Source: Chloroflexota bacterium
GTDB taxonomy: Bacteria; Chloroflexota; Anaerolineae; DTLA01
NCBI GenBank assembly: GCA_014874485.1
Contig: JADBJK010000040.1
Location: 1-55,342 of the forward strand
Length of the DNA stretch: 55,342 nucleotides
Reading direction: 5' to 3'
Below, one piece after another: positions 13,978 through 28,833 of this stretch (its first letter is position 1; each line of letters opens with the position of its first letter). A program made the translations under genes and the position numbers. Below the pieces are notes generated by a model. That model was not told the DNA's origin. It searched no databases and saw only the letters and a program-made list of their open reading frames with translations.

Positions 13978-14886
13978 CTACCCGCGGTCGGCCTTCTTCC
14001 CCTCCGGCTGCCAGATGCGCACCGCCGCGTCAAAATTGAGCCGGCGGCGGATGTCGTCCAGTTTATCCAGCGTGGCGAGGGACTTCTCCTTGTTGCTCAT
14101 GGCAACGGCGATGACCAGGGCCTGGATGATGGTCATGGGCACGATGAGCGAGTGGAAGGCCATGACGGGGCCGCGCTGGGCTTCAAGCAGGACGTCGGTG
14201 TGCTCTTGGAGGAGGGGGGCCAGCGTGTCGGTGAGCAGGATCACCTTCGCGCCGCACGCTTTGGCGTAGGCGAGGGTCGCCTCCATCACGTCCGACAGGT
14301 TGAAGAAGAGCATGGCGAAGAGCACATCGTCGCTGCCGAGGGACAGCAGCGGCTCGCAGATTTCGCGGCCCGACTGGGTCAGGGGCACCACCTCCAGGCC
14401 GAAACGGCGCAGGCGGTGCTGGAGCAGTTCGGCCAGGGTCGCCGACCCGCTCAACGCGTACACAAACGTGCGGCGCGCGCCGCAGATGAGGCGCACCGCC
14501 TCGTCAAAGGCGTCGCGGGACACGGTTCGCAGGGCCTCGGTGAGGTACTCCATCTCCATCGCCACGACCTGCTCCAGGATGTGCGACTCGGGGCTGATTT
14601 CGGCCAGTTTCTTGCGCAGGCGGGCGGCGTGGGAAACCCTGCGGCGGAACAGGTCCTGGAGGCAGGCGCGGAGTTCGGGGAAGCCCGAAAAGCCCAGGCT
14701 GTGGGCAAAGCGGACGACGGTCGCCTCGCTCAAGCCCAGGCGGTCGGCCAACTCGGCGGCGGCCAGGAAGGCTGCCTCGTCCTGGTTGTGCAGGATGTAG
14801 TCGGCGATGCGGCGCTCGCTCTTGGTGAGGGAATCAAAGTGGGCGCGCACCAGTTCGCCGAACTCGTTGCACTCGTTCTCGCCCAT
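13978..14886 (-). CDS. MurR/RpiR-family transcriptional regulator
   Basis: This 302-residue protein has an N-terminal HTH_6 domain (SKSERRIADYI-like stretch LTKSERRIADYILHN and LGLSEATVVRFAHSLGF, about residues 10-75) and a C-terminal SIS domain (about 120-260) that binds phosphorylated sugars or related effectors. ATG 14886 follows AGGAGG at the right distance; the ATG seven codons upstream overlaps that site. It is divergent from the second RpiR gene across a long repeat block. It probably controls the downstream Gfo/Idh/MocA gene. Confidence 0.92.
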   Translation of the reverse strand: MGENECNEFGELVRAHFDSLTKSERRIADYILHNQDEAAFLAAAELADRLGLSEATVVRFAHSLGFSGFPELRACLQDLFRRRVSHAARLRKKLAEISPESHILEQVVAMEMEYLTEALRTVSRDAFDEAVRLICGARRTFVYALSGSATLAELLQHRLRRFGLEVVPLTQSGREICEPLLSLGSDDVLFAMLFFNLSDVMEATLAYAKACGAKVILLTDTLAPLLQEHTDVLLEAQRGPVMAFHSLIVPMTIIQALVIAVAMSNKEKSLATLDKLDDIRRRLNFDAAVRIWQPEGKKADRG

Positions 14887-14937
14887 GTCGTCCTCCTGGC
14901 GGCCCATGCGCGGGCCGCTGCGCGCGGGTCTGTGAAA

Positions 14938-15660: not shown

Positions 15661-15713
15661 CTTTCACGACGAGGGCTTGATAACGTGTGCATGCCCTCGC
15701 CGCGAGGAGGCGG

Positions 15714-16634
15714 ATGGAAGAGGGGCTGAACGGCTTTCGCCAGCGGCTGGAAGATCGCTTCCCGAGCCTGACCAAGAGCCAGCGTCGGATCGCCGACTAT
15801 TTGCTCGCGAATTACGACGAGGCCGCGTTCCTGTCGGCCGCCGACCTCGTGGAACGCCTGCACGTCAGCGAGGCGACGCTGGGCCGATTCGCCAGGGCCG
15901 TCGGGTTCACCGGATTCCCCGCGCTGCGCCGCTACCTCCAGGAACTCTTCCGCCAGAAGACCACGCCGGCCAGCCGTCTCCAGCGCAAACTCCACGAACT
16001 GGCCGATGGCGAAGGCTCCACCCTCTCCAAGGTGCTGGAGATGGAAGTGCAGTACCTGAACGAGGCTGCCCACAGCATAGACGCCGCCGACTTTGACCGC
16101 GCCGTGCAAATCCTGTTGGGCGGGGAGCGGATTTTCGTGTTCGCCAGCGGGCCGTCGGCCGTTCTCGCCGACTTGGCCGAGTTGCGCTTCCGCCGCCTGG
16201 GAATCCTCACCCTGGCCATGACCGAGTCGGGTCGGCACCTGCTGGAGAAGTTGCAACTGCTGGAGCCCCGAGACGCGGTGCTGGCCGCCGGTTTTCAGTA
16301 CGTGCGCCACGAGTTGGTCGCCGTGCTGGACCACGCGCGGGCCGTCGGTTGCCGGTCGGTGCTCCTGACCGACACGCTGGGGCCTGCGCTTCGGCACAAG
16401 GCGGACGTGGTGCTTGCCGCGCGCAGGGGGCCGGTCTCCACGTTCCACTCGCTCACCGTGCCGATGTCCATCCTCAACGCGCTGATATTGGCGGTGGCGA
16501 TGGCCCGACCACAGGAAAGCCTCGCGGCGCTCAATCGGCTTGAGCGGCTGCGCGAAACGTACAACATGGACATTCCCGTCAAACTCACGTGGGGCGAACC
16601 CGTTTCAGAAGAGGCTTCGCAGCGCAAGACGTGA
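15714..16634 (+). CDS. MurR/RpiR-family transcriptional regulator
   Basis: This 306-residue protein has an HTH_6 domain (LTKSQRRIADYLL and LHVSEATLGRFARAVGF, about residues 15-80) and a C-terminal SIS domain (about 110-250, including FVFASGPSAVLADLA). RpiR proteins sense phosphorylated sugars or sugar-like ligands. ATG 15714 follows GAGGAGG closely (3-7 bases); GTG 15687 is an alternative start adding nine residues. It is the first gene of a plus-strand set containing an ABC importer, HAD proteins and phosphoglycerate mutases. A phosphorylated three- to six-carbon effector is therefore plausible, but this is inference. Confidence 0.92.
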   Translation: MEEGLNGFRQRLEDRFPSLTKSQRRIADYLLANYDEAAFLSAADLVERLHVSEATLGRFARAVGFTGFPALRRYLQELFRQKTTPASRLQRKLHELADGEGSTLSKVLEMEVQYLNEAAHSIDAADFDRAVQILLGGERIFVFASGPSAVLADLAELRFRRLGILTLAMTESGRHLLEKLQLLEPRDAVLAAGFQYVRHELVAVLDHARAVGCRSVLLTDTLGPALRHKADVVLAARRGPVSTFHSLTVPMSILNALILAVAMARPQESLAALNRLERLRETYNMDIPVKLTWGEPVSEEASQRKT

Positions 16635-16716
16635 TCGGTGCACAGGTGCGCGTCGGGATTCCGGCACCTGTCCAGGGGAGGCTGCGAAGCAGGACCAGAG
16701 CATGAAGGGAGGGGAC

Positions 16717-18552
16717 ATGGGGGTTCCTGAGGTGCTTCAGCCGCCGTTGTCGCTTCGGATTCTCGCCGCGTACCGAAGGTTCATCCGCTGGCTAACCAGC
16801 GCGAGGGTGCTCCTGGCGCTGATCCTGCTGGTGATGATGGTGTACCTCATCCTGGTGCCGCTGTACCGCATGGTGGAGACTACGGTAACGTACCAGGAGC
16901 GCGACGTGCTTGCCGTTCCCGATGCGGTGCCCGGGCAACTGACGGCCTACCACTGGGTGCGCATGCTGGCAAGCAGGGTGAGCAGGGTCTTCCTGTACGC
17001 GCCGCTCCAGCACTCGCTGGTTGTGGCGACGGGGGCCACGCTCCTCGCCATGTTCATCGGGTCGGTGCTGGCGTGGCTGGTCATCCGCACGGACATGCCC
17101 GGACGACATCTGGTCAACAACCTCGCCACGATTCCGTACATCATGCCCTCGTGGACCATCGCCATGGCGTGGAAGGTCATGTTCAACACGCGGGTTGCGG
17201 GCGGAACGCCTGGGCTTCTGGAATACCTCATCGGTCGGCCCATTCCCACGTGGTTGGCCTACGGGCCGATTCCCATCATCATCAGCAGCGCGCTGCACTA
17301 CTACACGTTCTTCTTCCTGTTCGTGTCGGCGGCGCTGATGTCCATTGACTCCAACCTGGAGGATGCAGCGGAACTGGCGGGGGCGAGCCGAAGCCGAATC
17401 CTGCGACGTATCACGTTCCCGCTGGTGCTGCCGGCGCTGCTGTCGGGGTTCATCATGACGTTCTCCAAGGTCATGGGGACGTTCGGCGGCCCCAACGTGT
17501 TGGGCACGCCCGTGCGGTACTACGTCATCGCCACGATGATCCGCTCCAGCGTGGCCATCGGCGAGTTCGCGGACGGGTTCGTGCTGGCCATCGTGCTGAT
17601 CCTGTTCACCATCGTTACCATCTACATCAATCAGCGGCTCATCGGCACGCGCAAGAGTTACGAGACCATCGGCGGGCGCGGGTTCGTGGCTCACGTGGCG
17701 CGGCTTGGCCCGTGGCGCAAGGTGTTGGCCGCTGGCGTAATCGTCTTCCAAGTCCTGGTCATCGCGCTCCCGCTGGGACTGCTGGCCTACGACACCTTTA
17801 TGCTGCACCCTGGCAACTACAGCCTGAGCAACTTCACGTTGCACTACTGGATTGGCAAGAGCGACATCAATATCGCGAACGGCACGCCGGGTGTCCTGCG
17901 CAATCCCAAGATATACTCCAGTGCCTGGAACTCCATCCGCCTGTCGCTGGCAACGGCCTTCTTCACGGCGCTGCTCGGGGTCATCCTCGGCTACGCCATC
18001 GTGAAGGGGCGGGGCACGCGCCTGTCCAAACTCGTGGAGCAGATTTCGTTCATCCCGTATGTCATCCCGGGGATCGCGTTCGGAGCCGTGTATATCTCCA
18101 TGTTCTCCAAGCGCGTAGGGCCGATTCCGCCGCTGTACGGCACATTCGCGCTGCTGGTCATCGTGTCGGTGGCGAAACACATCCCATATTCGGCGCGGAG
18201 CGGCGTATCGGCCATGCTCCAGGTGGGGCGCGAACTGGAGGAGGCGGGGCAGATGGCGGGCGCCAACCTATGGCAGCGGTTCAAGCGCATCATCTTTCCG
18301 CTGACCAGCGCCGGCTTCGTGTCCGGCTTCCTGCTGACGTTCATCACCACCATGCGCGAACTGTCGCTGATTATCCTGCTGGTAACGCCTGCGACGCAGG
18401 TGCTGTCGAGCCAGACCATGCGCTACACGGAGAACGGGGATACGCAGATGGCCAACGCGGTCATCCTCATCCTGATTACGTTGGTACTGATCGGCAACTT
18501 CATCATCGGGCGATTCCGAGGCGGGAGCCTGAAGAAAGGCCTAGGAATGTAA
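16717..18552 (+). CDS. ABC importer permease, fused double domain (Fbp/Afu/ThiP type)
   Basis: This 611-residue membrane protein has about twelve helices in two halves, each ending in a binding-protein-dependent transport (EAA) loop: ELAGASRSRILRRITFP and EEAGQMAGANLWQRFKRI. Fused permeases of this kind serve ferric iron, thiamine, 2-aminoethylphosphonate and hexose-phosphate importers. ATG 16717 is chosen after AAGGGAGG; ATG 16702 is possible, while a longer frame overlaps the RpiR gene. It lies with its ATPase (10 bp downstream) and lipoprotein. The RpiR regulator and the following phosphatase- and mutase-like genes favour a phosphorylated organic substrate over iron. Confidence 0.92.
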   Translation: MGVPEVLQPPLSLRILAAYRRFIRWLTSARVLLALILLVMMVYLILVPLYRMVETTVTYQERDVLAVPDAVPGQLTAYHWVRMLASRVSRVFLYAPLQHSLVVATGATLLAMFIGSVLAWLVIRTDMPGRHLVNNLATIPYIMPSWTIAMAWKVMFNTRVAGGTPGLLEYLIGRPIPTWLAYGPIPIIISSALHYYTFFFLFVSAALMSIDSNLEDAAELAGASRSRILRRITFPLVLPALLSGFIMTFSKVMGTFGGPNVLGTPVRYYVIATMIRSSVAIGEFADGFVLAIVLILFTIVTIYINQRLIGTRKSYETIGGRGFVAHVARLGPWRKVLAAGVIVFQVLVIALPLGLLAYDTFMLHPGNYSLSNFTLHYWIGKSDINIANGTPGVLRNPKIYSSAWNSIRLSLATAFFTALLGVILGYAIVKGRGTRLSKLVEQISFIPYVIPGIAFGAVYISMFSKRVGPIPPLYGTFALLVIVSVAKHIPYSARSGVSAMLQVGRELEEAGQMAGANLWQRFKRIIFPLTSAGFVSGFLLTFITTMRELSLIILLVTPATQVLSSQTMRYTENGDTQMANAVILILITLVLIGNFIIGRFRGGSLKKGLGM

Positions 18553-18561
18553 GGGGGGAGC

Positions 18562-19653
18562 ATGGGCACAACCATCACGATCAAGAACCTGACCAAGCGT
18601 TTTGGGGACGTGGTTGCGGTCAACAACGTGAGCCTCGCGATAGAGGCCGGGACGTTTCTCACGCTGCTGGGCCCATCGGGCTGCGGCAAGACGACGCTGT
18701 TGCGGTGCGTGGCGGGCCTGGAAGACCCCGACGAGGGCGAAATCTACATCGGCGACAGGCTGGTGTTCTCTCGCGCGCGAGGGATTTCCGTTCCGGCGGG
18801 GCAGCGGGACATCGGCCTGGTGTTCCAGAACTACGCCCTCTGGCCGCACATGACCGTGTACAAGAACATGAGTTTCGCCCTGGAGATTCGGAAACTGCCC
18901 AAGGCCGAGATTGACAAGCGGGTCAAAGAGTCGCTGGCCGAGGTGAAGATGCTGGGGTACGAGAACCGCTATCCCAGGGAGATGAGCGGCGGACAGCAGC
19001 AGCGCATCGCGTTGGCGCGCATGCTGGCGTATCGCCCCAAGGTGTTCCTCATGGACGAGCCGCTGTCCAACCTGGATGCGCGGCTCCGCATGGACATGCG
19101 GGCCGAACTGAAGCGCCTGCACTACGTGGCGGGCGCCACCACCATCTACGTTACCCACGACCAGGTGGAGGCGCTCACCATGTCCTCGCTCATCGCGGTC
19201 ATGAAGGATGGCGTGCTGCAGCAGGTGGACACGCCCGACCGCGTGTACCGCTGCCCGTCCAATCTGTTCGTCGCCGACTTCATCGGCAACCCGAAGGTGA
19301 ATCTCCTAGAGGGGGTTGTGGACGGGCAGGGGTGCGTAGACCTGGGCGAGTTCAAGGTGGCGATGGACACGCAGGGGGTGGAAGGGAAGGTGGTGCTGGC
19401 GATTCGGCCCGAGGACATCGCCGTGTACACAGAACCGACGCCGGGCACGGTGAAGTTCACGGTCTATTCGGTGCTGCCGTCGGGGGCGGATTCCACCATC
19501 GTGGCCCGCACGGGCGAGCGCGAGGTTACCATCCGCGTTCCGGGCATCAGCCCCATCAAGATGGATGACAGCGTGTGGCTGAAGTTTGACCCGCAGGTGA
19601 TCAACCTGTACGACGGAGCGACGGGCAATCTGGTGGCGGTTCGGAAGGTGTAG
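18562..19653 (+). CDS. ABC importer ATPase with TOBE domain (Fbp/Pot type)
   Basis: This 363-residue protein has Walker A GPSGCGKTT (37-45), Q-loop Q89, signature MSGGQQQ (141-147), Walker B VFLMDEP (161-167) and switch H199. A C-terminal TOBE-like regulatory domain (about 245-360) follows. It powers the adjacent double permease from the cytoplasmic face. It starts 10 bp after the permease stop behind GGGGGG. Sequence family alone does not give the substrate. Confidence 0.93.
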   Translation: MGTTITIKNLTKRFGDVVAVNNVSLAIEAGTFLTLLGPSGCGKTTLLRCVAGLEDPDEGEIYIGDRLVFSRARGISVPAGQRDIGLVFQNYALWPHMTVYKNMSFALEIRKLPKAEIDKRVKESLAEVKMLGYENRYPREMSGGQQQRIALARMLAYRPKVFLMDEPLSNLDARLRMDMRAELKRLHYVAGATTIYVTHDQVEALTMSSLIAVMKDGVLQQVDTPDRVYRCPSNLFVADFIGNPKVNLLEGVVDGQGCVDLGEFKVAMDTQGVEGKVVLAIRPEDIAVYTEPTPGTVKFTVYSVLPSGADSTIVARTGEREVTIRVPGISPIKMDDSVWLKFDPQVINLYDGATGNLVAVRKV

Positions 19654-19786: not shown

Positions 19787-21031
19787 ATGAAGACACTGGT
19801 GAAGGTTCTATCGGCCTGTATGCTGGTTGTGCTCATCGCGGGGTGCGCGGCGCCCGCGGCGACACCGACGCCGACACCGAAGCCGGCGCCCACCACCGCG
19901 CCAGGGCAGCCCACCCAGCCGCCATCGCCCACGCCTGAGCCGACGCTGACGCCCGATGAGCAGTGGCTCAAGGCAGCGGAACTGGGCAAGTTCGCCCCGG
20001 CCAAGCAGGACTGGGCAGCCATTGAGGCGGCGGCCAAGAAGGAAGGCAAGGTCATCGTGTACGCCAACTCCTCTCGTATTGAGAAGGCCGCGGCCATGTT
20101 CATGGAGAAGTACCCCGAAATCACGGTGGAAGGATACGACCTGGGCGGCGATGACGCGGTCATCAAGGTGCGCGAGGAACAGAAGGCCGGGGCCTATGTC
20201 GGAGACGTGTGGTTCTCCGGTGGCGGCCCGGACATCTTCGGCGACCTGCTGCCCAAGGGGTACCTCATCCCCTTTGTGCCCGACGACCTGCTGGACGTGA
20301 TCCCGCCCGAGGCCCGCAACCCGCTGGTGGTAGCGCGCTACGGCGTGCGCGTGCTGGGCTACAACACCGAACTCAACCCCAACGGCTGCCCTATCACCAA
20401 CTGGTGGCAGTTGACCGAGCCCGAGTGGAAGGGCAAGGTGTTCATTGAGGACCCGCTGACCGATGCCTCCACGATGGGCATTCTGACCACCATCGCCTCC
20501 CACGCGGAGGAGTTGGCGGCGGCCTACAGGGAGCGGTACGGCAAGGACCCGGTCCTGGATCCCGACACGCCCGACGCGGGCTGGCTGTGGGTCAAGCGGT
20601 TCGCCCAGAACTCGCCCGTGCCGGAGCCAGGGGGCGATGAGGTCGTGGAAGCCTTCGCCACCCCGGGCATGAAGGAGGCCGGCGTGGGGTTCACGTCGTA
20701 CTCCAAGTACCGCGACACGGTGAAGGGCAAACTGGTCTTTGATGCCTGCAAGGGGGTCAAGCCGGTGATGGGCGTCCAGACCCAGGCTTACCTCGCGGTC
20801 ATCAACCGCGCGTCGCACCCGAACGCGGCCAAGTTGTTCATCCGCTTCGTGCTCAACGAGGGATTTGAGCCGTGGAACGTCATCGGCGACTACTCGGCCC
20901 GCACGGATGTGCCCGCGCCGAAGGGTGCGATCCCGCGCGAGGAGCTCAACGTCTGGACCCAGGACGATGCCTACGTGTACGCCAACATCGCCAAGATGCG
21001 CGACTTCTGGGCGATGAACCTGCTCCAGTAG
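19787..21031 (+). CDS. ABC importer substrate-binding lipoprotein (Fbp/Afu type)
   Basis: This 414-residue protein starts with a lipoprotein signal (lipobox LIAGC, cysteine about residue 20) and a Thr-Pro-rich linker to about residue 55. A periplasmic-binding-protein fold of the iron/spermidine/sugar-phosphate group follows (KVIVYANSSRIEKAAAMF, GDVWFSGGGPD, LNPNGCPITNWWQL, GKVFIEDPLT). The paired tyrosines typical of ferric-binding proteins are not evident where expected, so iron is not favoured. It sits 133 bp downstream of its ATPase with its own GGAGGGAG site. Candidate ligands are hexose phosphates, phosphoglycerates or organophosphonates. Confidence 0.9.
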   Translation: MKTLVKVLSACMLVVLIAGCAAPAATPTPTPKPAPTTAPGQPTQPPSPTPEPTLTPDEQWLKAAELGKFAPAKQDWAAIEAAAKKEGKVIVYANSSRIEKAAAMFMEKYPEITVEGYDLGGDDAVIKVREEQKAGAYVGDVWFSGGGPDIFGDLLPKGYLIPFVPDDLLDVIPPEARNPLVVARYGVRVLGYNTELNPNGCPITNWWQLTEPEWKGKVFIEDPLTDASTMGILTTIASHAEELAAAYRERYGKDPVLDPDTPDAGWLWVKRFAQNSPVPEPGGDEVVEAFATPGMKEAGVGFTSYSKYRDTVKGKLVFDACKGVKPVMGVQTQAYLAVINRASHPNAAKLFIRFVLNEGFEPWNVIGDYSARTDVPAPKGAIPREELNVWTQDDAYVYANIAKMRDFWAMNLLQ

Positions 21032-21380: not shown

Positions 21381-22154
21381 ATGCCACATTCGGGTATCCG
21401 CGCCGTCATCTTTGATATGGGCGGTACGCTGGAAGACCTCTACTACGACGAAGCCGTGTGGCGGGAAGCGACGCGGCAACTCCAGCACCTGCTGGGCCAG
21501 CATGGGCTTGACCCGGGCCTGGACGCCGACGGGCTGCAATCCGCCGTGGTGGCGGGGATGGCTGCCTATCAGGCGTGGCGCGAGGCAACGGAGATAGAAC
21601 TGCCGCCCGAGCGCGTGTGGGCCGAGTACGTCTTCCCCCACAACGGGCTGTCCAAGGAGCGGCTGGCGGGCGCAGCCGAGGAGTTGACGTACTTCTACGA
21701 GACCCATTACCAGATTCGCAAACTCCGCCCCGATGCCCGCGACGTGCTCACCGCCCTGCACGAGCGCGGCTTCCGCCTGGGCGTGATTTCCAACATCATC
21801 AGCCGCACGGTGGTCCCGCGCCAACTGGCCGCTTACGGCATCGCCCACCTGCTTGACCCGGTGCTCACGAGCGCCGCGTTTGGCTGGCGCAAGCCGAACC
21901 CGCGCATCTTCCTGGAGGCGGCGCGGCTGCTGGGCCTGCCGCCGGCGCAATGCGCCTACGTGGGCGATACCGTGTCCCGCGACGTCATCGGGGCGCGCCG
22001 GGCGGGCTACGGGCTGGCGGTGCAAATCCGCTCGTTTCTCACCGACAAGGCGGATCGCGGCACGGAGGACGCGCTGCCCGACGCGGTGATTCACAGTCTC
22101 ACAGACATCCTCCCACTGGTTACTTCGCACTCGGAGACCGTTCATGGCGATTAA
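21381..22154 (+). CDS. HAD-superfamily protein, DxG variant of motif I
   Basis: This 257-residue HAD type I protein has motif I FDMGGTL (D12 nucleophile), motif II GVISN, motif III WRKPNP and motif IV YVGDTVSRD, plus a helical cap (about residues 20-115). The second Asp of the usual DxD, the general acid of HAD phosphatases, is Gly14. It may therefore be a phosphatase with altered chemistry, a dehalogenase-like hydrolase or a binding protein. ATG 21381 begins the conserved domain; the frame upstream is repeat sequence. Its end overlaps the next HAD gene by 11 bp, implying translational coupling. Confidence 0.88.
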   Translation: MPHSGIRAVIFDMGGTLEDLYYDEAVWREATRQLQHLLGQHGLDPGLDADGLQSAVVAGMAAYQAWREATEIELPPERVWAEYVFPHNGLSKERLAGAAEELTYFYETHYQIRKLRPDARDVLTALHERGFRLGVISNIISRTVVPRQLAAYGIAHLLDPVLTSAAFGWRKPNPRIFLEAARLLGLPPAQCAYVGDTVSRDVIGARRAGYGLAVQIRSFLTDKADRGTEDALPDAVIHSLTDILPLVTSHSETVHGD

Positions 22155-23574
22155 AGGTATCTTCTTTGACGCGGCCGGCGTCCTGTACCGTCGGCCAGAA
22201 TCCACAAACCTGTTCGTTCTGAAACTGTTGGAGCGCGAGGGAATCGTCCCCCGACCGGTTGATGCGTTCCGCGACCGCCTGGGTGCGCTGCGAGCGGATG
22301 CGAACAAGGGGGTGATCGCGCCGGACGAGTACTGGGACGCCGTGCTGGAGATGTATGGCGTCGGCGACCCGAATCTCCGCAAGGCGCTGGTGGCGGAAAT
22401 CAACGCCCACTCGGACACTGTGGAGGAGATTCCCGGCGCGCGACAGGCCCTGGCCACGCTCAAGCAGCGGGGCTTTCGTCTCGGCATCGTTACCGACACG
22501 ATTTATCCCCTTGAGCGCAAGCGACGCTGGCTGGACAGCCTGGGACTGTCGCCCCTTGTGGACGTTCTGGCGTGCTCCACGGACGTGGGCGCGCACAAGC
22601 CGGACCCCGCAATCTACTTGCGCGCGCTGGAGATGGCGGGCCTGACGCCGGGGGAATCGGCGTTTGTGGGACACGATGCCGAAGAACTGGAGGGCGCGCG
22701 CAAGGCTGGAATGACCACGGTCGCCGTCAACTACGATCGGGATGCCAGAGCAGACTACTACGCGGCAACGCCGCTGGACTTGCTGGACCTGCCAATCTTC
22801 AAGGATCACGCGAGACTGGAGGGAGACATGGAACGCGACATTGAGGTAATCTTCATTGACGTTGGAGCGACGCTGCGGGTGCTGGTGGAGGACGAGGAGT
22901 ACCAGGCCGAGGCCAGGCGACGGATCGCGGAATTGGTGGGCACGCAGGAGTCGCCGGAGGCCTTCTGCGCGGAACTGGACAAGCGGTACAAGACGTATCG
23001 CAAATGGGCGTTTGAGACCCTCAACGAGGCCTCGGAGCGAGAGTTGTGGACCCGCTGGCTCCTGCCGGATTACCCCGAGGAGAAGATCGCGCCGCTTGCT
23101 GGCGAACTGACGTTTCTGTACCGCCAGACGATGGGCCGCCGCTTCGCTCAGCCGGATGCGAAAGACGTGGTCCTGGAACTGACGCGGCGTGGATACAGGC
23201 TTGGCATCATCAGCAACACCATCACCGAGCGGGAGATTCCCCAGTGGCTGGAGGAGGACGGGCTGAAGCCGTATTTCCCGACCGTCGTTCTGTCGTCCAT
23301 CTTCGGGCGGCGCAAGCCCGGGCCGGAGATTTACCTTGAGGGCGCGCGCCGGGCCGGCGTGGAACCCGCGCGGGCGGTGTATGTGGGCGACAACCCCACG
23401 CGCGATGTGGAGGGCGCGCGGAAGGCCGGCTTCGGTATGGTGATCCTGCTGCTGGACCCGGCGGAGGCGGATGAGCCTATCGCCGAGGAGAACAAGCCCG
23501 ACTACATCATCCGCCGCCTCAGCGACCTGCTGGACATCTTCCCGCCGCGGCAGGCAGCGCAGGCGGCGTCGTAG
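22144..23574 (+). CDS. Fused tandem HAD-superfamily protein (two HAD domains)
   Basis: This 476-residue protein contains two complete HAD domains in one frame. Domain A (about 1-225) has FFDAAGVLY, GIVTDT, AHKPDP and VGHDAEE; domain B (about 230-470) has FIDVGATL, GIISNT, RRKPGP and VGDNPTRD. Both lack the second Asp of motif I (Ala and Gly instead), as does the preceding gene. A strong internal ribosome site GGAGGG (22818-22823) lies just before ATG 22828, where domain B begins, so domain B may also be made alone. The gene begins inside the previous one and ends 31 bp before the mutase gene. Three related DxG/A HAD domains in a row suggest local duplication. Confidence 0.85.
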   Translation: MAIKGIFFDAAGVLYRRPESTNLFVLKLLEREGIVPRPVDAFRDRLGALRADANKGVIAPDEYWDAVLEMYGVGDPNLRKALVAEINAHSDTVEEIPGARQALATLKQRGFRLGIVTDTIYPLERKRRWLDSLGLSPLVDVLACSTDVGAHKPDPAIYLRALEMAGLTPGESAFVGHDAEELEGARKAGMTTVAVNYDRDARADYYAATPLDLLDLPIFKDHARLEGDMERDIEVIFIDVGATLRVLVEDEEYQAEARRRIAELVGTQESPEAFCAELDKRYKTYRKWAFETLNEASERELWTRWLLPDYPEEKIAPLAGELTFLYRQTMGRRFAQPDAKDVVLELTRRGYRLGIISNTITEREIPQWLEEDGLKPYFPTVVLSSIFGRRKPGPEIYLEGARRAGVEPARAVYVGDNPTRDVEGARKAGFGMVILLLDPAEADEPIAEENKPDYIIRRLSDLLDIFPPRQAAQAAS

Positions 23575-23605: not shown

Positions 23606-25186
23606 ATGGGCGAGCAAGAGGACCGCGGGGGCGTGGCGCTGGCCCAGGCCGTGCGGCAACTGTACCAGGAAGGGCAGACGGACTACTCGCTGGAGCCCAT
23701 CGTGCTGGTGGACGCCCGCGGGGAGCCCATCGGCCGAATCCAGGACGGCGACGCGGTGGTGTTCTGCTGCCGCCGGGGCGAGCGCGAGGTTCAGTTGACC
23801 GAGGCGTTCGTGGATACGTCGCTGGATGCCTTCCCGCGGCGCGAGTTCCGCAATCTGACTTTCGTGATCCTGACCCTGTACCACGAGAAGTTCAAGGACC
23901 TGCCGGTGGCCTTCGCACCCACCCAGGTGCGCGATACGCTGGGCGAAGTGGTCAGCCGCGCGGGGTTGCGCCAGTTGCGCGTGGCGGAATCGGAGAAGTT
24001 CGCGCACGTAACGTTCTTCTTCAGCGGCGGCAACAATCAGCCCTTCGCGGGCGAGGAGGATGTGCGTGTCCCGTCTCCGAAAGGCGTGCCGTTTGACCAA
24101 GTGCCGGAGTTGAGCCTGCCTCAGGTCGCGGCGCGGGTTGCGGAGGGCGTGCGGGAGGGCTATGACCTCATCGTGGCGAATTTCGCCAATGGCGATGTCA
24201 TCGGCCACACGCAGAGCCGCGAGGCCAAGATCGCCTGCGCCGAGGCGGTGGACCGACACCTGGGCGAGGTGGTGGAGGCGGCCCTTGCCGCAGGATACGT
24301 TACCCTCGTTACCGCCGACCACGGCAACCTGGAGGAGATGACGCAACCCGATGGGTCGCCTCACGTGGCGCACACGGCGAACCCCGTGCCGTTCGTCGTG
24401 GTGGACCCCGGCATCGCGGTCGGCGCGGTGCGGGATGGGAGCCTGGCGGACGTGGCGCCGACGGTGTTGGGCGCGATGGGCCTCGCGCGGCCCGATGCGA
24501 TGCAGGGCGAGGGGCTTGTGCCTGCAGGGGCGTGGGGTGGCCGTCGCCGTGTGCTGCTGCTGATTCTGGATGGCTGGGGCATCGGCAGGGACGATGACAC
24601 GAACCCCATCTTCCTGGCGCGCACGCCGGTGTGGGACGGCTTGCTCCGCCGGTATCCCCATTCCGCCCTGCAGGCGGCGGGCGAGGCGGTGGGGCTGAAG
24701 GCGGGGAAGCCGGGCAACTCCGAGGCGGGGCACATCAACATCGGCGCCGGGCGGGTGATCCTGCAGGACGACGTGCGGCTTGACCTGGCGATGAAGGACG
24801 GCTCGTTCTATACCAACGAAACTCTCTGCAGGGTCATACGGGAGACCAAAGAGCGGGGGGCATCGCTGCATCTGCTGGGACTGCTGACCGAGAAGAGTTC
24901 CCACGGCTCCATTGAGTACCCCCTGGCACTGCTCCGCATGGCGAAGGCCGCCGGACTTGGCGATGTGTACCTGCACATCATTTTTGACGGCAGGAGCACG
25001 GAACCCGGAAGCGCGCCTGCACTCCTGGAGAAACTGGAAGGGCAGGTTCGGGAGATCGGCGTCGGCAAGATCGTTACCGGCGTCGGCAGGGGGATTGCCC
25101 TGGACCGCGACGGCAATTACGGCAAGACGCGGAAAGCCTACGATGCGCTCGTCTTCGGCACGGGCAGGTGGCAGACGTTGGAGTGA
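23606..25186 (+). CDS. Circularly permuted cofactor-independent phosphoglycerate mutase (GpmI type)
   Basis: This 526-residue protein contains the whole GpmI sequence in swapped order. Residues 11-305 match the canonical C-terminal half: R57 and R60, K131 in ESEKFAHVTFFF, D197 and H201, D238-H239 in TADHGN, H256 in HTANPVPF. Residues 314-526 match the canonical N-terminal half: D322 in LILDGWG, Ser nucleophile S372 in GNSEAGHINIGAGR, H433, R463, R495, R501. The join is a short linker near 304-315, and the new ends fall in the canonical transferase domain after AYDALVFGTG. All metal ligands and the serine are present; the usual Asp in DGRDT is Ser464. GpmI interconverts 3- and 2-phosphoglycerate with Mn2+. 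ATG 23606 follows GGGGGGTG. Confidence 0.85.
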   Translation: MGEQEDRGGVALAQAVRQLYQEGQTDYSLEPIVLVDARGEPIGRIQDGDAVVFCCRRGEREVQLTEAFVDTSLDAFPRREFRNLTFVILTLYHEKFKDLPVAFAPTQVRDTLGEVVSRAGLRQLRVAESEKFAHVTFFFSGGNNQPFAGEEDVRVPSPKGVPFDQVPELSLPQVAARVAEGVREGYDLIVANFANGDVIGHTQSREAKIACAEAVDRHLGEVVEAALAAGYVTLVTADHGNLEEMTQPDGSPHVAHTANPVPFVVVDPGIAVGAVRDGSLADVAPTVLGAMGLARPDAMQGEGLVPAGAWGGRRRVLLLILDGWGIGRDDDTNPIFLARTPVWDGLLRRYPHSALQAAGEAVGLKAGKPGNSEAGHINIGAGRVILQDDVRLDLAMKDGSFYTNETLCRVIRETKERGASLHLLGLLTEKSSHGSIEYPLALLRMAKAAGLGDVYLHIIFDGRSTEPGSAPALLEKLEGQVREIGVGKIVTGVGRGIALDRDGNYGKTRKAYDALVFGTGRWQTLE

Positions 25187-25197
25187 GGGGCGCAGGC

Positions 25198-26403
25198 GTG
25201 GACGCCGAATTGCTCCGCAAGTTGATCGTGCAGGCCGACACGAAGATCGCGATGGTCGTCATGGACGGCCTGGGCGGTCTGCCCCTGGAGCCGGGAGGCC
25301 CGACGGAACTGGAGGCCGCGCGCACGCCGAACCTGGACGCGCTGGCCGCCCGGTCGGTGCTGGGCCTCACGATTCCGGTGGGGCCAGGGATCACGCCGGG
25401 GAGCGGGCCGGGACATCTGGCCCTCTTCGGCTACGACCCGGTGGAGTACGACATCGGGCGGGGTGTGCTGGAGGCGCTGGGAATCGGCTTTGACATGCGG
25501 CCCGAGGATGTAGCCGCGCGGGGCAACTTCTGCACGGTGAACGCGGATGGCGTGCTGACAGACCGCCGCGCCGGGCGACTTGCCACGGAGATGAGCCGCG
25601 AACTCGCTGCGCTGCTGCGCACGATTCGGGTGGACGGCGCGCAGTTCTTCGTGGAGACGGTGAAGGAGCATCGGTTCGCCTTTGTGATGCGGGGCGAGGG
25701 GCTGGGCGATGCGCTGTCCGAGACCGACCCGCAGAAGGTGGGCGTGCGGCCCTTGCCGGTTCGGGCGCTGCGCCCGGATGCCGAGAGGAGCGCGCGGGTG
25801 GTGAACCGGTTTGTGGACGAGGCACGCCGCCTGCTGGCGGACCGGCATCCCGCGAACATGATTCTCCTGCGGGGGTTCGCACGGTATCCGGCGATCCCGA
25901 CGTTCCACGAGAGGTTCGGCCTCCGGGCCGGGGCGGTGGCGGTCAACGGGATGTACCGCGGCGTGGCGAGGCTGGTGGGGATGACGGTCCTGGACGTCGG
26001 CGGCGAGTCCGTGGCGGATGAGTTCGCGGCGCTGGAGCGGCACTGGCGCGATTTCGACTTCTTCTACCTGCATGTGAAGCAGACGGACACGGCAGGCGAG
26101 AGCGGCGACTTCTGGCGCAAGGTGCGCGCCATTGAGGAGGTGGACGCCCAGATGCCGCGCCTCATGGCCCTGGAGCCCGATGTCGTCATCGTAAGCGGCG
26201 ACCATTCCTCGCCCGCTGCGCTGCGCTCGCACAGTTGGCATCCCGTGCCGACGCTGCTGTATTCCAGGCGCGCCCGCGCCGATGGGATCGCGCAGTTTGG
26301 CGAGAGGGCCTGCGCCCGCGGGAGCCTGGGCGTGCTGCCCGCGACGCACATCATGCCCATCGCGCTGGCCAACGCCGGACGCATCGCCAAATACGGCGCG
26401 TGA
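25198..26403 (+). CDS. apgM: Archaeal-type 2,3-BPG-independent phosphoglycerate mutase (ApgM family)
   Basis: This 401-residue alkaline-phosphatase-superfamily protein has AMVVMDGLGGLP (metal Asp), EAARTPNLDALA, PGSGPGHLALFGYDP (Ser nucleophile), YDIGRGVLEALGIG, LTDRRAGRLA and VSGDHSSP (Asp-His metal site), which are hallmarks of ApgM. It should interconvert 3- and 2-phosphoglycerate, although some relatives act on other phosphate or phosphonate substrates. GTG 25198 is chosen because GAGGGG lies 7 bases upstream; GTG 25168 would overlap the previous gene. It directly follows the permuted GpmI-type gene, so two distinct mutase families stand side by side. Confidence 0.9.
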   Translation: MDAELLRKLIVQADTKIAMVVMDGLGGLPLEPGGPTELEAARTPNLDALAARSVLGLTIPVGPGITPGSGPGHLALFGYDPVEYDIGRGVLEALGIGFDMRPEDVAARGNFCTVNADGVLTDRRAGRLATEMSRELAALLRTIRVDGAQFFVETVKEHRFAFVMRGEGLGDALSETDPQKVGVRPLPVRALRPDAERSARVVNRFVDEARRLLADRHPANMILLRGFARYPAIPTFHERFGLRAGAVAVNGMYRGVARLVGMTVLDVGGESVADEFAALERHWRDFDFFYLHVKQTDTAGESGDFWRKVRAIEEVDAQMPRLMALEPDVVIVSGDHSSPAALRSHSWHPVPTLLYSRRARADGIAQFGERACARGSLGVLPATHIMPIALANAGRIAKYGA

Positions 26404-26433: not shown

Positions 26434-27630
26434 ATGTCGGCACCTGCGTTGCTCAACGACCCGTTGGCGTTCTCGGAGCGCCTGTATGTTGTGATGGCGG
26501 ACATCAACCCCGGCGTGGCGGACATGGAACTGTACGAGTTCCGCTACGCCCTGGACAACCTGTATCCCGAAGGCGGCTGGGCGTCGGTAACGCCGGAGCC
26601 GATGGCGGCGATTGAGGAGCGGGTGAACACGGCGGCGTTCTACGAGTCCATTCAGATCAAGCCGCGGGTGGACGACCGCATCGTGCTGGACCCCACCATC
26701 GTGCGGCTGGCCCAGATGCTGTTCGTGGGGTTGGTTACGGGCGAGTATCCCGTCCCGTGGGTGCGGACCCATTTCTACTTTGACATCCGGGGGTTCTACT
26801 TCCTGCACCGGACGACCTACTTCACGGAGCGCATCGTGGCGCGTCTGGGCGGTGCGCCGCTTCGGCAGTCCCCGAAGCGGCAGGCGGCCTTTGAGGGCAG
26901 GCAGGATTTGGGGTACAAGGAGTTCCGCGAGGCCAATGCCGAGGTGGACGCGTTCTTCATGGAGAGCGTCTGGCGGCTCATCGCGGCCAAGGGGACGCCC
27001 ATCGTCCTGGCGATTGCGGGGCCAACCGCGGCGGGCAAGACGGAGATTGTGGCGCGGCTGCACGCATTCCTGGAGGAGCGCGGGCGGGGGACCACATCTA
27101 TTGAGATGGACAACTTCCTCACCGACCGGGAATACCGGGAGGCGAAGGGAATCTATACCCTGGGCAAGCAAGCCATCCATCTGGGCCTGCTGCGGCGTGC
27201 GCTGGAGGACATCACCCGCGGCAAGCGGATCGCGATCCCTCGCTACGATTTCGTGTTCGCCACGTCCAGCCACGACCTGGACGGCAACCTGAAGCCGGGC
27301 TGCGCGCCCCTGGAGATTGAGCCGGCGGACATCGTTTTCATTGAGGGCAACTTCCCGTTCCTCATTGAGGAAGTGGCGCACCTCATCGGCATCAAGGTCG
27401 TGTATCTCACCGACGACCCCATCCGCCTGAAGCGCAAATGGAAGCGCGACATTGACTACCGCAAAAAGTACGAGCCTTCGTACTTCCGCAACCGGTTTTT
27501 CAAGGAGCAGTTCCTGATGGCCGAGAAGTGCTACCGGCCGCAGATGGAACTGTGCGACATGGTGGTGGACACGACGGGCGCGGCGGTGTGGGCGACGCCG
27601 GAGGTGGCGGCGATTCTGCGCGGGCTATAG
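26434..27630 (+). CDS. P-loop kinase (uridine kinase/phosphoribulokinase-like) with unknown N-terminal domain
   Basis: The C-terminal half (about 188-398) of this 398-residue protein is a nucleoside/sugar kinase fold: Walker A GPTAAGKT (196-203), a substrate loop IEMDNFLTDREY (223-234) like the DDFY region of uridine kinases, DIVFIEGNFPFL (Walker B-like), and a basic RLKRKWKRDIDYRKK lid. The first ~185 residues (ELYEFRYALDNLYPEGG, PWVRTHFYFDIRGFYFL) match no family I recognise. It lies 30 bp after apgM, at the end of the gene set. It could phosphorylate glycerate, a pentose or a nucleoside; the N-terminal domain may bind substrate or effector. Confidence 0.82.
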   Translation: MSAPALLNDPLAFSERLYVVMADINPGVADMELYEFRYALDNLYPEGGWASVTPEPMAAIEERVNTAAFYESIQIKPRVDDRIVLDPTIVRLAQMLFVGLVTGEYPVPWVRTHFYFDIRGFYFLHRTTYFTERIVARLGGAPLRQSPKRQAAFEGRQDLGYKEFREANAEVDAFFMESVWRLIAAKGTPIVLAIAGPTAAGKTEIVARLHAFLEERGRGTTSIEMDNFLTDREYREAKGIYTLGKQAIHLGLLRRALEDITRGKRIAIPRYDFVFATSSHDLDGNLKPGCAPLEIEPADIVFIEGNFPFLIEEVAHLIGIKVVYLTDDPIRLKRKWKRDIDYRKKYEPSYFRNRFFKEQFLMAEKCYRPQMELCDMVVDTTGAAVWATPEVAAILRGL

Positions 27631-27681: not shown

Positions 27682-27710
27682 TTGACAAACGCAGAAATGT
27701 TGGGTATACT
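27682..27710 (+). promoter_or_regulatory. Sigma-70 promoter of the lacI-type gene and sugar operon
   Basis: TTGACA (27682-27687), 17 bp, TATACT (27705-27710). It sits in a short AT-rich island after the kinase gene and reads into the regulator and oligosaccharide transport genes. Confidence 0.88.
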
Positions 27711-27715
27711 GGTAT

Positions 27716-27729
27716 TGAGAGCGCTCCCA
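27716..27729 (+). promoter_or_regulatory. CelR-type operator, site 1
   Basis: TGAGAGCGCTCCCA differs by one base from the perfect 14-bp palindrome TGGGAGCGCTCCCA. It begins 6 bp after the -10 box and covers the expected transcription start, a repressing position. From established work, TGGGAGCGCTCCCA is the binding site of the cellobiose-responsive LacI-family regulator CelR of Thermobifida fusca. Confidence 0.85.
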
Positions 27730-27790
27730 ACACGACTTGCGCGGTACCCAGCATCGCCCCCGATTTCCGGGGTTTTTCAATGGGAGGCAT

Positions 27791-27804
27791 TGGGAGCGCT
27801 CCCA
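27791..27804 (+). promoter_or_regulatory. CelR-type operator, site 2 (perfect palindrome)
   Basis: TGGGAGCGCTCCCA is a perfect 14-bp palindrome whose centre lies 75 bp from the centre of site 1. It abuts the regulator's AGGAGG ribosome site. The spacing would allow looping between two dimers, and the position would also block translation-proximal transcription. Confidence 0.88.
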
Positions 27805-27813
27805 GGAGGCGCG

Positions 27814-28833
27814 ATGGCGCTCACGCTTGAGCAGATCGCCAAACTGGCCGGGGTCTCCCGCTCCACCGTGTCGCGTGTGGTCAACGACGACCCCAATGTC
27901 CGCGACGAAGTCCGGCAGCGCGTCTGGAGGGTCATCCGCGAAACAGGCTACCAGCCCCATGCGGCTGCTCGCAGCCTTGTTACCCGCCGCACCCAGATCA
28001 TCGGCGTCATCATCCCCGAATCGGTAACCACACTGTTCACCGACCCCTTCTTCTCGCTGTTGCTGGCCGGAATCACGGCCGCGTGCAACGAGAACCGCTA
28101 TCACCTCATGCTGTCGCTGTTCAACAGCCCGGAGGGGTCCGACGCCATCTACCAGCGCGTGCTGCGCTCGGCCTATCTGGACGGCGTTATCGTGGCTTCC
28201 GCGACCGGCGACGACCCGTTGATCCCCCGACTTCTGCGCGACAGTATCCCCTTCGTGCTGGTGGGCAGGCATCTGGACAAGCGGGTTACCTACGTGGACG
28301 TGGACAACGTGAGCGGCGCGCGCATGGCCACAGAGCATCTGATCCGCCTGGGCCACAAGCGGATCGCCACGGTTACCGGCCCGATGAGCATGTTGAGCGC
28401 CCAGGACCGCCTTACGGGTTACAAGCAGGCGCTGGAGGCACATGGGCTTCCGGTGGATTCCTCGCTCATCGCCGAGGGAGATTACCGCGAGGGCGGGGGG
28501 ATAGCGGCTGTTCGCCGTCTCCTGCCGGCTTCGCCGACGGCCATCTTCGTCGCCAGCGATGTGATGGCTGTGGGGGTCCTCAAAGCCCTTCGCCAGGAAG
28601 GCCGAGAGGTGCCTGGGGACATAGCCATCACCAGTTTTGATGATTTGCCCGTGGCTACTGCAGTACAGCCTGCCCTCACCACGGTGCGACAACCGATTGA
28701 CGATTTGGGACGGACAGCGGTTCAACTCTTGCTGGACTTGATCCACCGTCCGCCAGATGCAACGAGCGTGCCGCAGCGGCTCGTGCTCCCGACCGAATTG
28801 GTCGTGCGGGGTTCCTGCGGCGCGCGCCGATGA
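27814..28833 (+). CDS. LacI-family regulator, CelR-like
   Basis: This 339-residue protein has an N-terminal LacI helix-turn-helix (LEQIAKLAGVSRSTVSRVVND, about residues 5-25), a hinge helix (PHAAARSLVTRR) and a periplasmic-binding-like ligand domain (about 60-335) ending in DDLPVATAVQPALTTVRQP. ATG 27814 follows AGGAGG. Two CelR-type operators flank its leader, so it is probably autoregulated. Its neighbours encode a family-5 oligosaccharide importer, GH130, GH1 and GH94 enzymes. Cellobiose or a related disaccharide is the likely inducer, by analogy with T. fusca CelR. Confidence 0.93.
   Translation: MALTLEQIAKLAGVSRSTVSRVVNDDPNVRDEVRQRVWRVIRETGYQPHAAARSLVTRRTQIIGVIIPESVTTLFTDPFFSLLLAGITAACNENRYHLMLSLFNSPEGSDAIYQRVLRSAYLDGVIVASATGDDPLIPRLLRDSIPFVLVGRHLDKRVTYVDVDNVSGARMATEHLIRLGHKRIATVTGPMSMLSAQDRLTGYKQALEAHGLPVDSSLIAEGDYREGGGIAAVRRLLPASPTAIFVASDVMAVGVLKALRQEGREVPGDIAITSFDDLPVATAVQPALTTVRQPIDDLGRTAVQLLLDLIHRPPDATSVPQRLVLPTELVVRGSCGARR

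Follow-up and report, generated by a model that had tools for sequence, protein, structure and literature searches.

The cofactor-independent phosphoglycerate mutase (GpmI, iPGM) homologue encoded in a 55,342-nucleotide stretch of DNA from a Chloroflexota bacterium of the class Anaerolineae (contig JADBJK010000040.1, here called the window) is circularly permuted. In its open reading frame, what is the C-terminal part in canonical GpmI (1EJJ 214-510) comes before what is the N-terminal part (3-211). That this permutation is real, intact and conserved is close to certain. The role of the protein is inferred. The gene is laid out as follows; its boundaries between transferase and phosphatase domain are approximate and follow the domain layout of 1EJJ.

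23606-25186, + strand: permuted GpmI-type gene, 526 amino acids plus stop (ATG 23606, stop 25186)
23606-23923, + strand: residues 1-106, at the new N-terminus: transferase domain, second part in the canonical order (canonical ~212-311), with R57/R60 (= R261/R264); from Pfam, phmmer, residue mapping and structure match
23924-24760, + strand: residues ~107-385, phosphatase (metalloenzyme) domain, contiguous, with all metal ligands and Ser372; boundary approximate
24518-24550, + strand: join of the old C-terminus to the old N-terminus, residues 305-315; from phmmer and homologue alignment
24761-25183, + strand: residues 386-526, at the new C-terminus: transferase domain, first part in the canonical order; boundary approximate
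24719-24721, + strand: codon of the nucleophile Ser372 (= Ser62); residue mapping to 1EJJ
24995-24997, + strand: codon of Ser464, replacing the substrate-contacting Asp154; residue mapping, PMC3886921

A purine-rich stretch lies immediately 5' of the ATG. The original prediction had read the frame as two inverted GpmI halves, and profile and pairwise searches bear it out. Pfam iPGM_N (PF06415) hits it twice, in inverted order (23636-23884 = profile 135-216; 24785-25171 = profile 3-131). The whole protein scores 489.8 bits with NCBIfam TIGR01307, above the cut-off of 330.65, as the sum of two stretches, either of which by itself stays below the cut-off in a genome scan. Against 1EJJ, phmmer pairs residues 15-305 with chain 219-509 (233.0 bits) and residues 313-521 with chain 3-211 (172.6 bits), in swapped order. 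Such scores exclude chance as their source. In the usual layout of GpmI the nucleophile half leads and the phosphatase domain is interrupted by the transferase domain; all 65 aligned permuted proteins have the inverse order. What defines a circularly permuted homologue is met: one parent for both parts, exchanged order, linked old termini, one site of new termini and a kept fold. The protein does not qualify as an archaeal-type mutase (apgM): it scores 33.9 bits with TIGR00306, where more than 320 are required.

The join had been placed at about residues 304-315, rightly so by phmmer and an alignment of 65 homologues, in which it measures 8-19 residues between the equivalents of L304 and V316 (11 in most). 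The new termini lie within the transferase domain, as foreseen, at canonical ~211/214. An AlphaFold2 model of the protein (pLDDT 93.7, pTM 0.82) was compared with known structures. Its residues 8-306 superpose on 1EJJ 214-510 (Z 22.8, 293 residues, rmsd 5.8; rmsd 2.8 for 4my4), and residues 308-526, folded alone (pLDDT 82.6), on 1EJJ 3-227 (Z 12.7, 212 residues). The proposed check that both halves adopt the 1EJJ fold was thus passed by each part separately; the matches were made part by part, and the whole chain was not superposed non-sequentially. The order of the sequence, with support from the predicted model, makes the phosphatase domain continuous and leaves the transferase domain split. 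The nesting of the two domains is inverted.

The permuted form is not confined to the window. A one-piece colinear match to the permuted chain was found in 27 of 396 genomes sampled in the class, the window genome included; about 68 others have the halves as separate matches, mostly in normal order, or one half only. Two other genomes of the same genus carry the permuted order, at 95% and 83% identity. A normal order in all close relatives would have refuted the original prediction; the relatives at 95%, 83% and 75% identity are permuted. A scan of GTDB genome contigs with two short peptide patterns yielded 390 relatives, of which 80 were kept and listed; all 80 are permuted and belong to Anaerolineae, Clostridia, Spirochaetes and one Actinomycetes MAG. 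Because both patterns, the RGERE motif among them, were taken from the alignment of permuted proteins, the scan does not count GpmI at large. The form is rare in an evenly drawn sample of the phylum, with 2 of 400 at E<=1e-90 (two rows, one being the window genome).

Could the join be an assembly chimera, or two gene fragments fused by chance? The window genome is a 122-contig draft, and a misassembly near the join had been named as the other possible refutation. The search of related genomes, however, recovered the same order at 42-95% identity in independent assemblies, among them Levilinea saccharolytica NZ_LGCM01000037 and a single-contig genome of 5.35 Mb (G250), and the hosts include the isolates Levilinea saccharolytica KIBI-1 and Butyricicoccus pullicaecorum ET57. 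Both halves, moreover, give an identical grouping. An artefact of this kind can practically be dismissed. Nor is the gene decaying, as had been argued beforehand: the 526-residue frame is intact, and dN/dS is 0.12 against the relative at L004 and 0.14 against that at L005, alike in both halves.

Trees were built with FastTree after in-silico re-ordering of the chains, for the whole protein and for each half, from 65 permuted and 18 canonical sequences. The permuted proteins form one group apart from the canonical ones, with support of 1.0 (whole), 0.999 (N-half) and 0.992 (C-half). Since they group together in all three trees, a single permutation event would be enough, and the test of a single origin and shared history is met within this small canonical sample. 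A fusion of two unrelated lineages was considered and is ruled out, both halves giving the same grouping. Canonical sampling was mostly from Chloroflexota and Clostridia; the sister group is thus undetermined. There are two permuted clades, that of the window (48 proteins in the tree) and a second one in the class (17 proteins, 42-47% identity to the window protein). The permutation is old and common to bacteria of several phyla. One ancient event would have given an iPGM new termini midway through its transferase domain. The phosphatase domain, formerly interrupted by the transferase domain, has thereby become one block between two transferase parts.

The active site is kept almost completely. 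The residues named beforehand agree with the numbering of 1EJJ (K131 = K336, D197 = D403, H201 = H407, D238/H239 = D444/H445, H256 = H462, D322 = D12, S372 = S62, H433 = H123, R463 = R153). The seven metal-site positions D12, S62, D403, H407, D444, H445 and H462 are invariant in the 65 permuted proteins. Canonical iPGM contacts phosphoglycerate through S62, H123, R153, D154, R185, R191, R261, R264 and K336 (PMC3886921). Eight of these nine are kept and invariant in the permuted proteins, and the full nine-residue set is therefore not met. The exception is Asp154: of the 65 permuted proteins 48 have Ser and 17 have Gly at this position, and all 18 canonical ones have Asp. What had been claimed of the metal ligands, the serine nucleophile and the substrate arginines stands; the loss of Asp154 had escaped notice. 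Further, Asp263 is Glu in all permuted proteins, Tyr186 is Gly or Phe, and in the second clade Asp151-Gly152 has changed as well, to Gly-Arg. Asp154 may also have an acid/base role. A contact with the substrate is all that PMC3886921 supports.

The gene lies in a row of genes of the same strand:

15687-16631, + strand: RpiR-type regulator, from locus comparison
16540-18549, + strand: permease of an ABC transporter, orthologous to the L059 permease (PhnU2-like); the real start is probably more internal
18562-19650, + strand: ATPase of an ABC transporter, orthologous to the L061 ATPase (UgpC/PhnT2-like)
19787-21031, + strand: solute-binding protein (SBP_bac_11/6; FbpA/AfuA-like, the AfuA match being weak)
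21382-22154, + strand: upstream partner, a HAD-fold protein with the motif DMGGT, by which its start was chosen
22144-23574, + strand: double HAD-fold protein, motifs DAAGV and DVGAT
25198-26403, + strand: homologue of apgM-type phosphoglycerate mutase, probably starting at GTG 25198
26434-27630, + strand: PRK/uridine-kinase-type P-loop kinase; N-terminal region without Pfam match
27682-28833, + strand: LacI-type regulator

AfuABC is an importer of sugar phosphates (PMC4546632). Judged by the annotation of its neighbours, the gene looks like part of a phospho-compound operon with an organophosphate-type ABC transporter, the substrate of which was guessed from distant homologues. Open reading frames antisense to real genes in GC-rich loci (e.g., clusters 1, 9 and 20) were taken as spurious. 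Two RpiR-type regulators (13981-14907 and 15687-16631) lie on opposite strands close to the transporter genes. In the kinase, the PRK/uridine-kinase domain occupies the second half; the ~185 N-terminal residues belong to no Pfam family and are conserved in Anaerolineae loci.

The most constant neighbour is the HAD-fold gene. It is found on the same strand within 1.2 kb upstream in 70 of the 76 window-clade loci with room for it, at a median gap of 32-70 bp. These upstream proteins (21382-23574; loci L050-L129), two of which are fused in the window, have DxG or DxA instead of DxD: the +2 Asp is Gly in 111 and Ala in 3 of the 114 motifs scored. Because the replacement is found in every motif, they may, on sequence grounds, be no ordinary phosphatases. 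To this pair the Anaerolineae loci add apgM, the PRK-type kinase, RpiR and LacI regulators and the ABC transporter; the Clostridia loci add LacI, PfkB, MgtC and a proton pyrophosphatase. No apgM and no kinase were found in the Clostridia neighbourhoods, and transporter genes are rare there. At L077:2780-6552 and similar Clostridia loci, MgtC, PfkB and the membrane proton pyrophosphatase adjoin the permuted gene, hinting at phosphate or pyrophosphate metabolism. None of the window-clade operon genes was found in the six loci of the second clade; in two of these a histidine-phosphatase-like gene directly follows the permuted gene (L133:8530-9153, L134:7776-8468).

Most hosts possess another phosphoglycerate mutase homologue. 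One above the curated cut-off and outside the operon was found in 22 of 25 genomes (canonical GpmI in 6, GpmA in 5, apgM in 11); G250 has a partial apgM match only, G405 weak GpmA-family matches only, and in G402, a 1 Mb draft, no other homologue was found. In addition to the operon's apgM, the window genome encodes another at C1:37774-38895.

What, then, is the permuted enzyme good for? Its two-metal, serine-phosphoenzyme machinery is intact, and for this reason its chemistry very likely persists, an inference without activity data: Ser372 would accept the phosphate of a small phosphorylated hydroxy-acid and then return it. The physiological role, we are inclined to think, is not simply glycolytic phosphoglycerate conversion. 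This is unproven, and it is inferred from the replacement of Asp154 in every permuted member examined, from the other mutase homologues of most hosts and from the coupling of the window clade to HAD-fold genes, joined in Anaerolineae by genes for a transporter, a kinase and another mutase. The explanation that we favour overall, with some reserve, joins an ancient permutation to a specialised phosphomutase or phosphotransferase for the use of phospho-compounds, probably not a spare copy of an ordinary mutase. Its likeliest role, by inference, is one step in exploiting some phosphorylated compound, three-carbon or similar, the substrate being unproven, and the tightly linked HAD proteins would probably work on the same compound. 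A bolder version is only tentative: the permuted proteins could be a distinct enzyme family under the name of phosphoglycerate mutase, in which permutation and loss of Asp154 are coupled and which acts on another substrate, with HAD partners that lack their second Asp.

Against an altered role it must be held that all Arg and Lys contacts are kept, as would suit phosphoglycerate, that apgM shares the operon, that the Clostridia loci lack apgM and kinase, and that the second clade lacks the operon. Since a mutase homologue is part of it, phosphoglycerate itself may be the operon's substrate. The protein might then be an ordinary phosphoglycerate mutase (3-PGA/2-PGA), merely permuted, as a second or conditional enzyme of phosphoglycerate use. 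The TIGR01307 score and the invariance of metal ligands, Ser, His123, five Arg and the Lys336 equivalent speak for it just as the operon's apgM does. We nevertheless consider it rather unlikely: all 65 permuted proteins have lost Asp154 and all 18 canonical ones have it, a need for such an enzyme is not evident in 22 of 25 genomes, and HAD linkage in the window clade is constant. It is still less probable that mutase activity has been lost altogether and a phosphatase or substrate-binding regulatory protein with HAD-fold partners remains. The loss of Asp154 and of the +2 Asp in all 114 scored neighbouring HAD motifs would fit a loss of acid/base steps, yet two-metal site, nucleophile and Arg/Lys contacts are fully conserved, and dN/dS stays at about 0.12 in both halves.

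If the substrate of the favoured specialised enzyme does differ, many bacterial genomes are mis-annotated, including those of gut and rumen Clostridia. Profile annotation, which sums two out-of-order matches, would label the permuted proteins ordinary glycolytic enzymes. A conserved natural permutation of a much-studied two-domain enzyme also offers a natural test of chain order against folding, hinge motion and substrate specificity. The original prediction knew of no description of a natural GpmI permutation, and none was found in the open-access literature, most subscription papers lying outside the search; to our knowledge, there is none.

With canonical GpmI (1EJJ; TIGR01307, PF06415 + PF01676) the permuted proteins share full-length homology of both parts (about 40% identity to 1EJJ), metal ligands, nucleophile, five Arg and one Lys contacts and the predicted two-domain fold; they differ in the cut at ~211/214, in the short linker between the old termini and in the exchanges of Asp154, Asp263 and Tyr186. 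apgM belongs to the same metalloenzyme superfamily, but has another cap domain (PF10143) and the normal order. The phosphatase-domain fold is shared with phosphopentomutase (Z 11.8) and the alkaline phosphatase/sulfatase superfamily. There, the nucleophile part precedes the C-terminal metal ligands; in the permuted proteins it comes after them. Natural circular permutations are known from saposin/swaposin, concanavalin A and DNA methyltransferases, where the order is changed and the fold retained. In iPGM the permutation has a further effect: of its two nested domains, the split one has become continuous and the continuous one split.
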